A stretch of 5,419 nt of DNA, from positions 1 through 5,419 of the forward strand of contig CALPPK020000112.1 of assembly GCA_943325435.2 (NCBI GenBank), written 5' to 3'. This DNA comes from Bifidobacterium breve. Its GTDB lineage: Bacteria; Actinomycetota; Acidimicrobiia; Acidimicrobiales; Ilumatobacteraceae. Shown here one piece after another: positions 1 to 5,419 of this stretch. The notes beneath the pieces were generated by a model. That model was given only the letters and a program-made list of their open reading frames with translations, was not told the DNA's origin and made no database searches. The position numbers were made by a program, and so were the translations under genes. Within the stretch, counting starts at the first letter, position 1. The number at the start of each line of letters is the position of its first letter.

Positions 1-1746
<1,746 letters not shown>

Positions 1747-1759
1747 GAATTGGTGTGAG

Positions 1760-1777
1760 TGTTAACTCTGTGTAAAC
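1760..1777 (-). promoter_or_regulatory. 11-bp-spaced direct repeat, copy A (upstream of glnK)
   Basis: GTTTACA and GTTAACA on the minus strand with starts exactly 11 bases apart. The element lies just past the antiporter stop codon, 134-151 bases upstream of the glnK start. It matches the element at 4790-4807 at 15 of 18 positions. Direct repeats with one helical turn between units are typical of OmpR/PhoB-type regulators; PHO boxes of Streptomyces (GTTCACC units, 11-base period) are the closest known pattern. Confidence 0.45.
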
Positions 1778-1789
1778 GGGCCCTGAGAA

Positions 1790-4453
1790 CTAAGAAAGGA
1801 GTTCAGTGATGCGTTGCAGAGCTTGCGGGCCCAACTTGCGCCCGTGCCGCGTTGAGACTTCAAAGCGGTCAGATACATCGTCACCTTGGGTAGAGATATG
1901 GGCATGGTGAACATTTGTCTTCGCTTTTGCGAAAGCAGTTGCAACAGCCTGCACTAGCCCAGGTTGATCAGCGCCCGTAACTCGAATCACGCTGTGCCAC
2001 GGATGAGCGTCGTTATCAAGACTGATTGTGAGTCGTGATTGATTGTTGTTAATGAGGCGTCTTGGTGCATCGAGCCGGCGCTTTAAGCGATTCTCTAATT
2101 CAAACGCGATTTGAACGGCATTCGGCTTTTGTGGAGAGTTCACAACGAATGAGTCGAGGACAGCTTCATCTGGCCAAGTGGCTAGATCTGCACTGACAAT
2201 TTCCAGGCCACGTTCGGCGAGTACTGCGCAAATACGTGCGAGAAGTCCTCTCATGTCGCGTGTTGCGATGTTGATAGTCCATTGACCACTTTGCTGCGTG
2301 CCTTCAACACTCACTCGAACTTTGCCGGAACGTGGTGCTGGTTCAACGAGTGTTGCGTGGCGCACCAAAGTTTCTGGTTCGTGGGCGAGTATGTACACAG
2401 CTGCAGCATGTCGTAAGCGGTCGAGAACTTGCGGGTCAGAAGTCAATGACATTGCTTCGCTTCGCCGAACGGATTCAACAGAACCTTCAATGCCTTCAAT
2501 AAGTTCTGGATGCGCAAGAAGTTCTTGTACGCCCGTCGTGATGTCTAGCAATTTCGGATATTGCCAATCTTCAAGGTTGCCTCGAGCTTCTGTCAGCATT
2601 CGGCACTGTTCAACCATCAGTGGAGAACCGAGGAAGTCAGCCAACTGAGCCATGTTTCGTGCGTTGTTTTCAATCGTTTCGGATGAAGCGGCTGTATGCA
2701 AAAGTGCACTTGCTGCAACCAAGGCTCGAATTTGTTGTGCAACATTCTCTGGGAAAACCAATCGATTGATCATTCCAATTGCTGGACTGTCATCTGAAAA
2801 ATCAAGAACAAAGGCAGCAAATAAAATTGCTGAATCCGAAAATGAATTTCGACCAACTCGTTCTCGAAGTGTTTCAACTGTTGGCATTTGCACTGAATGC
2901 GTTGGGTCTAGTTCGGAAGCATCACCTCGACGGGCACGAATCGCTTTATCTATTTCTGGCATTGCACGTCCGACAATGTTGGTGACTTCCAGAAATCTCC
3001 ACGAGCGGGCGTTTCCTCGAACCAACACTTCATAGAGCAATTGCGAAGTCGCAAGGTCCCATGTCAACTCAACTGAACGGTTGGCGTGCATCCAATCGAG
3101 TAGCGCATCGTTTGGTTGAGCCCGGGATGCAAGCAAAGAGGCTTGAAGGCCAAGTGAAAGAACTAGAGAAGGCGGCGGGTTGCCTTGAAGTTGAACTTCA
3201 TCGTTGTTGATTACCAGCCAACCGCCGGCGGGTTCCTCGGTAATTAGAGAAGCGTCTAATGCGGTGGCAGTTTCTTCTGCGTGTTCGATGCGCCAGCGAA
3301 GTAGCGGTGGGGTAATCACAGTGGTCAAAAGAACTACCAGTAAGACGACTGCGTATAAGTCGTCATCAAAGACTCCGACAGCCACTCCGATTGACGCGAA
3401 GATCAGACCAACTTCGCCGCGTGGAATCATTCCCAAACCGATTAGTAACTTGTCGGCATTTGTGCCTCGCGCTCCGAGTGCAGCCACCACCTTTCCGAAG
3501 ATGGCAATGATGGTGAGAATTGCTGCAACAAATAGAACATGACCAGAGAAGAACTTGGTGACGTCGGTGTCAATACCAATCTGTAAGAAGAAGACCGGAA
3601 TAAAGATGGCACCAAGAGATTTAAAGTCTCTTGAAATTCGATCATGTTGAGGAGTGCGAGACAGCGCTGTGCCTGCGATGAATGCCCCAATGATTGGTGC
3701 AAGTTGTGCACCGCTGGCTGCTGCTGAGAATCCGAAAGTTAGGCCGGCCGCGAGAACTCCGATAGTCGCTGGTGAAACTGCCCGTTCGCCAATGAGTGCG
3801 AACAAGCGGGGGACAACCAGAATTCCGATGCCACCGGCAACGGCAATGAACCCAACAGCAATTCCTATGGTGCTCGCAACGCCAGCCAGATCAACTGACC
3901 CTTGCTGAACAATTCGAGTGACAACGGTCAGGATGATGAGGCCAAAAACGTCATCAGCAACTGCCGCGCCGAGAACTATGCGTGCTTCAGTAGATGACAG
4001 TGCTCGCAAGTCACCGAACACTCGAGCAGTAATGCCCACGCTGGTTGCAGCGAGTGCGGCTCCGAGGAACAGCGATGCATTGAATGATTCACCAAGAACC
4101 GAGCCAGCCAAGACGCCAGACGACATGGGGACCACTACGCCGATAATGGCAACGAGCATGGAAGCGCGTCCCACTTTTCTCAGTTCGGTGAGGTCCATCT
4201 CGAGGCCGACTTCAGCCAACAAAATAATTACGCCAACTTCTGCCAAGATGCGCATTGCGTCGCTGGGGTCAATGAGGCCAAGCATCGATGGGCCAATGAC
4301 GATGCCTGCGATGATTTCGCCGAGCACGGCGGGAACCCGAATGCGTTCAAACAGTTCGGCTGCAATCTTGGCAACAATGAGAATGATCGCAAGGTCGGTG
4401 AATATTGAGCCGTAGTCAATGGCGCCGCCTGCGGCTAGTAGCGCTGTATTCAC
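1790..4453 (-). CDS. CPA2 cation/proton antiporter fused to a GlnD-like HD-ACT-ACT module
   Basis: Predicted inner-membrane ion/proton antiporter with a large cytosolic sensor. Residues ~15-385 form the 12-13 membrane helices of the Na_H_Exchanger (CPA2) fold: VPAVLGEIIAG near 40-50, GAAVADD with the paired aspartates D167-D168 as in electrogenic NapA-type exchangers (KefC has QD), K321 in GKVVAALGAR, and GMIPRGEVGLI at 341-351. KefB/C would next have a KTN/RCK domain with a glycine-rich nucleotide-binding motif; none is seen. Instead residues ~408-887 resemble GlnD after its nucleotidyltransferase: linker, degenerate HD domain, two ACT domains. The frame is open throughout, so this is one gene and not an assembly join. 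The GTG at 4453 is the only start in its open frame (a stop lies at 4471-4469), 8 bases after the regulator's stop; no strong ribosome site is seen, so coupling is likely. Ion (Na+, K+) and the signal sensed are not known. Confidence 0.9.
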   Translation of the reverse strand: MNTALLAAGGAIDYGSIFTDLAIILIVAKIAAELFERIRVPAVLGEIIAGIVIGPSMLGLIDPSDAMRILAEVGVIILLAEVGLEMDLTELRKVGRASMLVAIIGVVVPMSSGVLAGSVLGESFNASLFLGAALAATSVGITARVFGDLRALSSTEARIVLGAAVADDVFGLIILTVVTRIVQQGSVDLAGVASTIGIAVGFIAVAGGIGILVVPRLFALIGERAVSPATIGVLAAGLTFGFSAAASGAQLAPIIGAFIAGTALSRTPQHDRISRDFKSLGAIFIPVFFLQIGIDTDVTKFFSGHVLFVAAILTIIAIFGKVVAALGARGTNADKLLIGLGMIPRGEVGLIFASIGVAVGVFDDDLYAVVLLVVLLTTVITPPLLRWRIEHAEETATALDASLITEEPAGGWLVINNDEVQLQGNPPPSLVLSLGLQASLLASRAQPNDALLDWMHANRSVELTWDLATSQLLYEVLVRGNARSWRFLEVTNIVGRAMPEIDKAIRARRGDASELDPTHSVQMPTVETLRERVGRNSFSDSAILFAAFVLDFSDDSPAIGMINRLVFPENVAQQIRALVAASALLHTAASSETIENNARNMAQLADFLGSPLMVEQCRMLTEARGNLEDWQYPKLLDITTGVQELLAHPELIEGIEGSVESVRRSEAMSLTSDPQVLDRLRHAAAVYILAHEPETLVRHATLVEPAPRSGKVRVSVEGTQQSGQWTINIATRDMRGLLARICAVLAERGLEIVSADLATWPDEAVLDSFVVNSPQKPNAVQIAFELENRLKRRLDAPRRLINNNQSRLTISLDNDAHPWHSVIRVTGADQPGLVQAVATAFAKAKTNVHHAHISTQGDDVSDRFEVSTRHGRKLGPQALQRITELLS
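1793..3232 (-). other. GlnD-like regulatory module (linker, dead HD, ACT1, ACT2) within the antiporter gene
   Basis: Residues ~408-887 of the fusion. The linker (about 410-510) contains GWLVINNDEVQL and FLEVTNIVGRAMPE, matching the stretch between nucleotidyltransferase and HD in actinobacterial GlnD, where a sequence like LLGRLLPEW is found. The HD part (about 512-645) keeps the layout but not the metal ligands. ACT1 (about 724-800) has RDMRGLLARICAVLAERGL and SADLATW; ACT2 (about 807-887) has LDNDAHPWHSVIRV, DQPGL, HHAHIST, DRFEV and GRKL, which follow GlnD ACT2 block for block. In GlnD the ACT pair senses glutamine. The module's origin from GlnD is inferred by eye from these aligned motifs. 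Confidence 0.78.
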
Positions 4454-4461
4454 GGTCTCAG

Positions 4462-4746
4462 TTATATCTCACGCGAGAGCAGTATCTCGGCCGCTTTATG
4501 TGCTTCATCAGACAGCATCCAGCCTCTGCGGCGAACCGTAACAATGCTGTCAACGCCTAGAACCTTTCGTAAGACCACCAATGAAGAGTCCGCTCTTCTG
4601 GCTGAGACGTTGTCGAGGCCAGCCAGCCGAAGAATGGACTCGCGGCTGACGACCCGACCCTTGGCATCTAACAAAACCCGAAGAATAGATAGGTCAGTCT
4701 CAGAAAGGAGGCCAGGAGTCTGAACGTGGCTGACGGAATCGGGCAT
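4462..4746 (-). CDS. Stand-alone winged-helix regulator (OmpR/PhoB-type DNA-binding domain)
   Basis: A 94-residue protein that is almost only a Trans_reg_C winged helix. LLSETDLSILRVLLDAKGRV (13-32) matches the entry strand and first helix of the PhoB domain, SRESILRLAG (34-43) the second helix, ARRADSSLVVLRKVLG (49-64) the recognition helix, and SIVTVRRRGWML (67-78) the wing hairpin. There is no receiver domain, so it is not a classical response regulator; similar winged helices also occur fused to uroporphyrinogen-III synthase in actinobacteria. I chose the ATG at 4746 because a TAnnnT box lies 6 bases upstream, fitting leaderless expression, and because the domain starts right after. Starts at 4815 (ATG) or 4860 (TTG) would add 23 or 38 residues without domain character, with no ribosome site, and would leave little or no room for a promoter. 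It probably controls the antiporter and perhaps glnK-amt; the target is inferred. Confidence 0.75.
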   Translation of the reverse strand: MPDSVSHVQTPGLLSETDLSILRVLLDAKGRVVSRESILRLAGLDNVSARRADSSLVVLRKVLGVDSIVTVRRRGWMLSDEAHKAAEILLSREI

Positions 4747-4752
4747 ACAGCA

Positions 4753-4758
4753 ACCATA
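4753..4758 (-). promoter_or_regulatory. Candidate -10 box for a leaderless regulator transcript
   Basis: TATGGT on the minus strand matches TAnnnT and ends 6 bases before the ATG at 4746, which would place the transcription start on the start codon. Leaderless messages are common in actinobacteria. No clear -35 is present; the direct-repeat element at 4790-4807 lies upstream and may serve an activator. Confidence 0.4.
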
Positions 4759-4789
4759 TGAGTGGAGTTTTTCCAGTCTGTCTGCCCCC

Positions 4790-4807
4790 TGTGAACGGTG
4801 TGTAAAC
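4790..4807 (-). promoter_or_regulatory. 11-bp-spaced direct repeat, copy B (upstream of the regulator)
   Basis: GTTTACA and GTTCACA on the minus strand, 11 bases apart, 44-61 bases upstream of the regulator ATG at 4746. It shares 15 of 18 bases with the element at 1760-1777. The position suits an activator or autoregulation site for an OmpR-type protein. If the regulator instead started at 4815 this site would lie inside its coding sequence. Confidence 0.45.
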
Positions 4808-4810
4808 AGA

Positions 4811-4827
4811 CACATTCGTTCAATGTG
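4811..4827. promoter_or_regulatory. Palindromic operator candidate in the divergent region
   Basis: CACATT, five-base spacer, AATGTG: two perfect 6-base arms. It lies 36-52 bases upstream of the acyl-CoA dehydrogenase start and next to the direct repeat of the divergent gene. The size fits a dimeric repressor such as a TetR or GntR family protein, often found controlling acyl-CoA dehydrogenases. No such regulator is encoded in the window. Confidence 0.4.
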
Positions 4828-4862
4828 CGGAATTGCCTCGTTGTACGACAGAATTACCAACC

Positions 4863-5419
4863 ATGGAACTTACCTACGCCCCCGAAGATGAACTGTTCCG
4901 CGCCGAAATCCGTGCGTGGCTCCAAGAGAACCTACCGAAAGGTTGGTTCGACAAAGGTTTCGAAATGAGCAACGACGCTCGCGACAAGTTCAACAAAGAA
5001 TGGCCGGGCAAATTGTTCGAAGGCGGATGGATCTGCGCAACTTGGCCAAAGGAATATGGCGGCAAAGGACTTTCAACAATGCAAGGTGTTGTGTTGTCAG
5101 AAGAGTTTGCAAATGCAAAAGCTCCGATGCGTGCCGACTTCTTCGGTGACACTCTTGTTGGCCCAACACTTCTTCAGTGGGGAACAGAAGAGCAGAAGAA
5201 GGAATTTCTTCCACAAATTCTTAACGGCCAAATGCGTTGGTGCCAGGGTTTCTCCGAGCCAAACTCCGGTTCTGACCTTGCAAGTTTGAAGACAACTGCT
5301 GTTCTTGACGGCGATGAATGGATCATTAACGGCCAGAAGGTATGGACCACACAAGGTCACCACGCCGACTATTGCTTCCTTCTCACACGTACTGACCCTG
5401 ATGCACCAAAGCACAAGGG
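4863..5419 (+). CDS. Acyl-CoA dehydrogenase, N-terminal part (cut by window)
   Basis: FAD enzyme that introduces an alpha-beta double bond into an acyl-CoA thioester, passing electrons to an electron-transfer flavoprotein; cytosolic. The visible 185 codons cover the N-terminal helical domain (about 5-120) and most of the middle beta domain. Diagnostic blocks are WPKEYGG (61-67), LLQWGTEEQKKEFLP (103-117), the family signature WCQGFSEPNSGSDLA (126-140) and INGQKVWTTQGHHADY (155-170), where the WTT segment contacts FAD. The catalytic glutamate lies in the missing C-terminal domain, so chain length or substrate class (fatty acid, branched acid or steroid side chain, as in the many actinobacterial FadE proteins) cannot be set. 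The ATG at 4863 has no recognisable ribosome site (the message may be leaderless). It is divergent from the nitrogen cluster and probably unrelated to it. Confidence 0.95.
   Translation, partial: MELTYAPEDELFRAEIRAWLQENLPKGWFDKGFEMSNDARDKFNKEWPGKLFEGGWICATWPKEYGGKGLSTMQGVVLSEEFANAKAPMRADFFGDTLVGPTLLQWGTEEQKKEFLPQILNGQMRWCQGFSEPNSGSDLASLKTTAVLDGDEWIINGQKVWTTQGHHADYCFLLTRTDPDAPKHK

Follow-up and report, generated by a model that had tools for sequence, protein, structure and literature searches.

We analysed a stretch of 5,419 nucleotides, here called the window (contig CALPPK020000112.1, positions 1 to 5,419, assembly GCA_943325435.2; filed as Bifidobacterium breve, GTDB lineage Acidimicrobiia, Ilumatobacteraceae). 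Its main gene codes for an 887-residue protein that joins a predicted cation/proton antiporter to a tail (ψGlnD) collinear with a large part of GlnD, the bifunctional PII uridylyltransferase/uridylyl-removing enzyme. The fusion gene occupies positions 1790..4453 of the minus strand, with a GTG start at 4453 and the stop at 1790; a preliminary description of this DNA had placed it correctly, the strand being left unstated. Four genes follow each other on the minus strand. A winged-helix protein of OmpR/PhoB type (PF00486; 4462..4860) is encoded 8 bases before the fusion, which is followed after a gap of 145 bases by a PII gene of GlnK/GlnB type (1288..1644; PF00543, E 8e-32; T-loop RGSEY) and, overlapping the latter by 11 bases, by the gene of an ammonium transporter, Amt, cut by the window edge (3..1298; PF00909, E 3e-98). 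The two gaps and the overlap suggest that all four genes form one transcript. The winged-helix protein is small, shows no match to a receiver domain and is perhaps a regulator of this putative operon. The plus strand carries a divergent acyl-CoA dehydrogenase gene.

The antiporter domain takes up residues 20-395 (3269..4396; this and all further parts of the fusion lie on the minus strand) and matches PF00999 at residues 24-385 with E 1e-62 and 212.6 bits, the cut-off being 26.2. It is closer to NapA (E 5e-66) than to KefC (E 2e-11), and a fold test of the domain returned the NapA fold. D167-D168 (3950..3955) are aligned with D156-D157 of NapA and K321 (3491..3493) with NapA position 305. All three residues are invariant in 74/74 members of an alignment (A3) composed of the window protein, 52 returned proteins and 21 loci. 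We take the Asp-Asp pair and the lysine, K305 in NapA, to be the transport site of NapA. Judged by its sequence, this half is a NapA-type CPA2 antiporter, for which cation/proton exchange is predicted; the transported ion would be Na+, with K+ or NH4+ as alternatives that might apply. The preliminary description had recognised a full CPA2 antiporter with D167-D168 and the motif GMIPRGEVGLI, fused in one frame to about 480 GlnD-like residues, and all of this is borne out. It had also supposed that the GlnD-like part replaces the RCK domain of a KefB/KefC-type protein, which, given the affinity to NapA, is not the best description. Behind the antiporter no RCK or TrkA_N match was found in Pfam at E ≤ 1, and the curated whole-protein cut-offs are not reached for KefB (61.9 against 804 bits) or KefC (53.6 against 752).

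The tail begins with a linker region (residues 408-520; 2894..3232), shown by hhalign to resemble the part of GlnD that connects nucleotidyltransferase and HD, and continues with a pseudo-HD region (about residues 521-645; 2519..2893), a connecting segment (646-712; 2318..2518), ACT1 (713-792; 2078..2317) and ACT2 (808-887; 1793..2032). The profile of 23 fusion tails (alignment A1: the window and 22 of 26 fusion loci, leaving out L020 with its internal stop and L024-L026, which lack the ACT part) was compared by hhalign with that of 21 true GlnDs from this class (alignment A2: 20 GlnD loci and L028, with L027, L029 and L030 not included). The two match with probability 100 and E 2e-38 over 423 columns, spanning columns 302-764 of the 776 in the GlnD profile, collinearly through linker, HD, ACT and ACT. 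The nucleotidyltransferase is not present in the fusion; the antiporter stands in its place, and the match starts only at GlnD column 302. TIGR01693, the GlnD family model, matches window residues 676-884 (E 1.3e-26), starting inside the connecting segment, and it matches 43/43 fusion tails of a further alignment (A4: the window and 42 of 47 named loci, without the broken, partial or split L047, L060, L061, L065 and L077). The tails of many carriers match it from about 370 to 847 of its 850 positions, others in the later part only. The fusion-tail profile itself retrieves GlnDs of other classes (L123-L137) at about E 1e-57 to 1e-65, and these show nucleotidyltransferase and HD motifs wherever the frame is complete. 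In the window tail, PF01842 finds two ACT stretches (E 4.7e-15). The Pfam HD model is absent from the window protein at E ≤ 1, and only ACT-type domains appear in the tail; the profile checks suggested earlier thus gave PF00999, ACT and the GlnD family, while HD failed to appear. Source names of the relatives refer to antiporter, KefB or ACT and, for some tails without PF00999, to uridylyltransferase. Folded alone, the tail reaches a pLDDT of 85.5; the first ~250 residues of the model (linker and pseudo-HD) resemble the tail of CCA-adding enzymes and poly(A) polymerases, and the part beyond resembles ACT proteins.

The active site of the HD region is lost. Five residues, H405, H433, D434, H475 and D516 (L078 numbering), which we presume from HD enzymes to be the metal-binding and catalytic set, are each found in 21/21 GlnDs of the joint alignment. 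The 23 fusions keep D434 in 19 cases, H433 and D516 in one case each, and H405 and H475 in none; no fusion has more than two of the five, that of the window has D434 alone, and K437 and H443 are retained in 0/23. The HD part is a pseudoenzyme; the domain order read by the preliminary description stands, with its HD corrected to a pseudo-HD. Because it lacks the nucleotidyltransferase and the HD site and remains below the whole-protein cut-off of TIGR01693 (93.2 against 519.4 bits), the fusion is not a GlnD; nor does it qualify as a Kef protein. The loops of the ACT domains are retained. In ACT1 (D733..G736-L-L738), D733 and L738 are present in 74/74 members and G736 in 69/74, and in ACT2 (D829-x-P-G832), D829 is present in 71/74 and G832 in 72/74. 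The mean majority fraction is 0.77 for the antiporter, 0.66-0.67 for the ACT domains and lowest, 0.56, for the pseudo-HD. Both halves are under purifying selection: in seven locus pairs the ratio of nonsynonymous to synonymous change (pN/pS) falls between 0.10 and 0.29 in the tail and between 0.05 and 0.17 in the antiporter. Silent sites are close to saturated in most of these pairs, which makes the values rough, but the close pair L049/L050 gives 0.10 for the tail and 0.05 for the antiporter.

Fusions of this kind are not confined to the window. PF00999 is present in 118/120 homologues among the matches listed (120 of 239), and these carry both halves. A second homologue search, started from another lineage, gave PF00999 in 76/89, and Pfam domains identify 9 of the remaining 13 as GlnDs. 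A tail search detected ψGlnD, whole or shortened, in 26/296 genomes of the class; the antiporter part lies on a separate contig in G104, is cut at a contig end in G123, and the gene is split in G116. Additional short forms were detected via the antiporter in G276 and G282. Among 396 genomes of the phylum, the fusion was found in a lineage designated f65 (G334, G320) and in the class members G052 and G040, and G336 has a tail without antiporter. The 47 named loci carry titles of Acidimicrobiia (or lower groups), Actinomycetes, Actinobacteria and Actinomycetota; nearly all are metagenome-assembled genomes (MAGs), and lakes or groundwater appear in several titles. In a maximum-likelihood tree, 25 fusion tails and three antiporter-less tails form a single group, separated by a split of 100/100 from 35 rows labelled GlnD, one of which (L143) has no HD motif by pattern. 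Tails without antiporter are few, namely L059, L140 and P0071, the last of which still has a piece of the antiporter end at its start. In L059 (7609-11879), ψGlnD immediately precedes a true glnD and the winged-helix gene is kept upstream; since this tail nests among the fusions, its antiporter was probably lost secondarily. The tail of L140 (7530-8942, minus strand) has no Amt, PII or antiporter match nearby, adjoins genes for a ROK protein and a glucose/sorbosone dehydrogenase, and diverges before all fusions in the tree; it may be a stand-alone form of greater age, or its position may reflect a long branch.

The antiporter half is seen in 44/47 named loci, where the usual order is winged-helix gene and fusion with Amt/PII genes on the same strand. 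The winged-helix gene, immediately upstream on the same strand in 33/44, is the most constant neighbour; three of the other 11 loci have less than 50 bases of upstream sequence, and the gene persists where antiporter or Amt neighbours are lost (L059, L103). Same-strand Amt or PII genes lie within 2.5 kb in 31/44 loci, a count that takes in the decayed copy L061. The link to nitrogen drawn in the preliminary description is supported, with glnK-type PII and amt genes directly downstream in the window as well as in many relatives. Amt or PII is found beside the gene on the same strand in 13 of the 26 carriers of the class (the G192 flank covers about 1.5 kb), Amt is divergent in G120, and in the f65 lineage Amt lies directly upstream of the fusion in both G334 and G320. 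Control loci with non-fused antiporters have same-strand Amt/PII in 0/14 cases and divergent in 1/14; four of these 14 come from one genus (g6), some flanks are short (155 bases upstream in L163), L168 held no antiporter, and L154, of the same antiporter clade, was counted apart. The Amt subtype of the window occurs at E ≤ 1e-160 in 33/296 genomes; 15 of these belong to the 26 carriers, so the subtype exists without the fusion too. G072 keeps winged-helix gene, Amt and PII, and an antiporter match is absent in the 16 kb fetched. Five loci without Amt (L041, L043, L044, L047, L065) have as the next shared gene one that elsewhere lies beyond Amt/PII (cluster 3, F420-hydrogenase-beta-like as judged by the L065 copy), so that they represent the same genomic place with Amt/PII absent. 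A second Amt, 31-39% identical, comes after the first in L032-L036, L038, L040, L064 and L066, followed by a second PII where the contig extends.

Architecture, selection and gene order suggest that the tail gates the antiporter. We consider it fairly probable that a NapA-type antiporter is here switched by binding of an amino acid, glutamine or alike, to a GlnD-derived pseudoenzyme tail. A nitrogen-status signal, for which an amino acid like glutamine is the most likely candidate, would bind the ACT pair; this would alter the shape of the tail and thereby switch the antiporter. Glutamine is the effector of GlnD and, because the ACT pair descends from GlnD, would be the first candidate for the ligand; PII would not be obligatory. 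The operon would also import ammonium (amt) and encode the regulator of this import (PII), and the exchanger could serve the task of Amt, for example by offsetting the charge and proton load of ammonium uptake or by exporting NH4+ under nitrogen plenty. Ion exchange across the membrane may in this way be set by nitrogen status in some actinobacteria known from environmental genomes.

Several observations weigh against this proposal. The full-length structure model has a pTM of 0.54, with the relative placement of the domains not fixed, and the pseudo-HD shows the lowest conservation of all parts. Same-strand Amt/PII genes are lacking in 13/44 named loci (in L058 the downstream sequence is absent) and in the other 13/26 carriers of the class. 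In 6/7 f22 genomes Amt is absent beside the gene and leuB lies 0.8-5.2 kb downstream of the fusion, followed by ilvE and leuA where the contig extends, which makes a branched-chain amino acid a possible ligand. The nearest of the genomes covered, G001, a fragmented MAG, encodes an antiporter 97-98% identical to that of the window, then a stop, then PII and Amt, without the tail (window residues ~396-875). A 435-residue antiporter frame without tail, placed before Amt and PII, is present in G154 of the same genus; since G154 is 96% complete and tail-less like G001, the loss of the tail looks real in this genus. Five further relatives (G089, G178, G108, G276, G282) have kept a short pseudo-HD, the ACT domains being absent. 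Gating by an ACT ligand is hence not general, and the glutamine gating that had been proposed earlier does not apply universally. As a separate observation, f22 loci with leuB-ilvE-leuA instead of amt-glnK are L067, L075, L076, L077/L144, L146-L148 and L151.

The relation of the fusion to GlnD and PII was followed in 28 carriers, 26 of the class and two of f65. GlnD exceeds the TIGR01693 cut-off in 21 of them and pieces of GlnD are found in two more (G104, G123); Amt or PII lies at 13/23 true GlnD loci within the stretch fetched. A full separate GlnD in most carriers would point to a division of labour with the fusion. Neither GlnD nor PII was detected at E ≤ 1e-8 in five carriers, G040, G052, G197, G101 and G183, which are 98%, 97%, 96%, 90% and 68% complete, and whose fusion frames are 881-1016 residues long. 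In G052 and G197, Amt is beside the fusion and PII is undetected genome-wide. Single cases might be explained by missing contigs; together, the five carriers argue for direct sensing of a ligand and are the strongest evidence obtained for a tail able to act without PII. It is possible, though to be held with some reserve, that in lineages without GlnD and PII the fusion is a PII-independent nitrogen sensor within an ion exchanger, which would convert the level of an amino acid (glutamine) into a change of the membrane ion or proton gradient, and that in G052 and G197 such a sensor sits beside an Amt with no PII to plug it. There the fusion tail would be the last remaining sensor of GlnD type, so that the transporter would read the amino acid directly.

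Two alternatives appear to be the chief rivals of gating by a glutamine-like ligand. The ACT pair may sense an amino acid other than glutamine, such as a branched-chain one, linking the exchanger to amino-acid synthesis in general, which would be compatible with gating as such and overlaps with the main proposal. ACT domains bind many amino acids and leuB is near the fusion in the f22 genomes, but of the neighbours tested only the winged-helix gene is commoner than Amt and PII, and GlnD, the source of the ACT pair, responds to glutamine; we regard this ligand choice as somewhat unlikely. Less probable still is an antiporter that docks PII, with GlnK or modified GlnK bound by the pseudo-HD, much as the HD of GlnD has to bind it, and switching transport, and the ACT domains secondary. 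It would account for the PII gene adjoining the fusion in many loci, for the canonical T-loop Tyr, and for the ACT-less forms, which keep the pseudo-HD in genomes that have PII. CPA antiporters are dimeric, a point that counts against it. Such docking is difficult to reconcile with the five carriers without detected PII, three of them 96-98% complete, and with the pseudo-HD being the least conserved part.

The remaining explanations carry much less weight. The antiporter half might be a mere membrane anchor or ion sensor of a transceptor whose tail acts on PII or Amt, with which the tail is often co-encoded. However, the tested transport residues D167, D168 and K321 are invariant, the antiporter is the better conserved half, it persists without the tail beside Amt/PII in G001 and G154, and tails without it are few; this arrangement seems quite improbable. 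A working uridylyl-removing enzyme tethered to the antiporter is more improbable again: collinearity with the HD part of GlnD and the frequent D434 speak for it, yet no fusion has more than two of the five HD residues, and carriers mostly possess a true GlnD in addition. The preliminary description had itself named homologues split into two genes as a sign of an assembly artefact. Such a split exists in one genome (L077 = L144), where the halves are separate neighbouring frames of 399 and 490 residues. Overall, the many intact fusions, forming one tree group in two lineages and evolving under purifying selection, make an assembly or frameshift artefact a negligible prospect.

Gating of the antiporter by the GlnD-derived tail can be set beside several known systems. 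The solved chain of Thermus NapA (4bwz/5bz2) is 394 residues long and stops behind the membrane domain, to which the fusion adds a 480-residue tail. GlnD shares with the fusion the order of linker, HD, ACT and ACT; the fusion lacks the nucleotidyltransferase, has lost the HD site and is predicted to be membrane-bound. KefC and KefB, K+/H+ antiporters with a KTN/RCK tail, are alike in combining CPA2 with a cytoplasmic ligand-sensing tail, but the tail of the fusion is unrelated, and in the alignment KefC has Gln-Asp and no PRGE motif where the fusion has Asp-Asp. SLC9C1, with a cyclic-nucleotide-binding tail, and SOS1, with an autoinhibitory tail, are again exchangers with a regulatory tail, differing in tail and signal; both rank high in the fold comparison via the membrane domain. 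Sensory tails of antiporters are known to respond to glutathione and nucleotides (Kef) or cyclic nucleotides (SLC9C1). An antiporter-GlnD fusion was not found in the open-access PMC literature by titles and abstract starts among the matches listed, and while the principle of an exchanger with a sensory tail is known, a GlnD-derived tail on a NapA-type antiporter appears to be new.

If our proposal is true, proton/cation exchange would be coupled to nitrogen status through a tail derived from the central nitrogen regulator, with no soluble messenger in between. The fusion would also offer a natural test of the HD and ACT modules of GlnD after loss of catalysis, and relatives lacking the ACT domains, the whole tail, the antiporter or PII allow a part-by-part comparison. 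Passages of PMC10710835 describe two further parallels. In LacS, a lactose/galactose antiporter, an EIIA-like domain from nutrient signalling is fused to the transporter; both proteins thus unite a transporter with a nutrient-signalling domain, but LacS deals with sugar and HPr phosphorylation, without a nitrogen signal. In GlnK-AmtB, transport is governed by nitrogen status, the regulator being a separate soluble trimer, whereas in the fusion the sensor-like part is covalently built into another transporter, encoded in the same operon of the window as homologues of GlnK and AmtB themselves.

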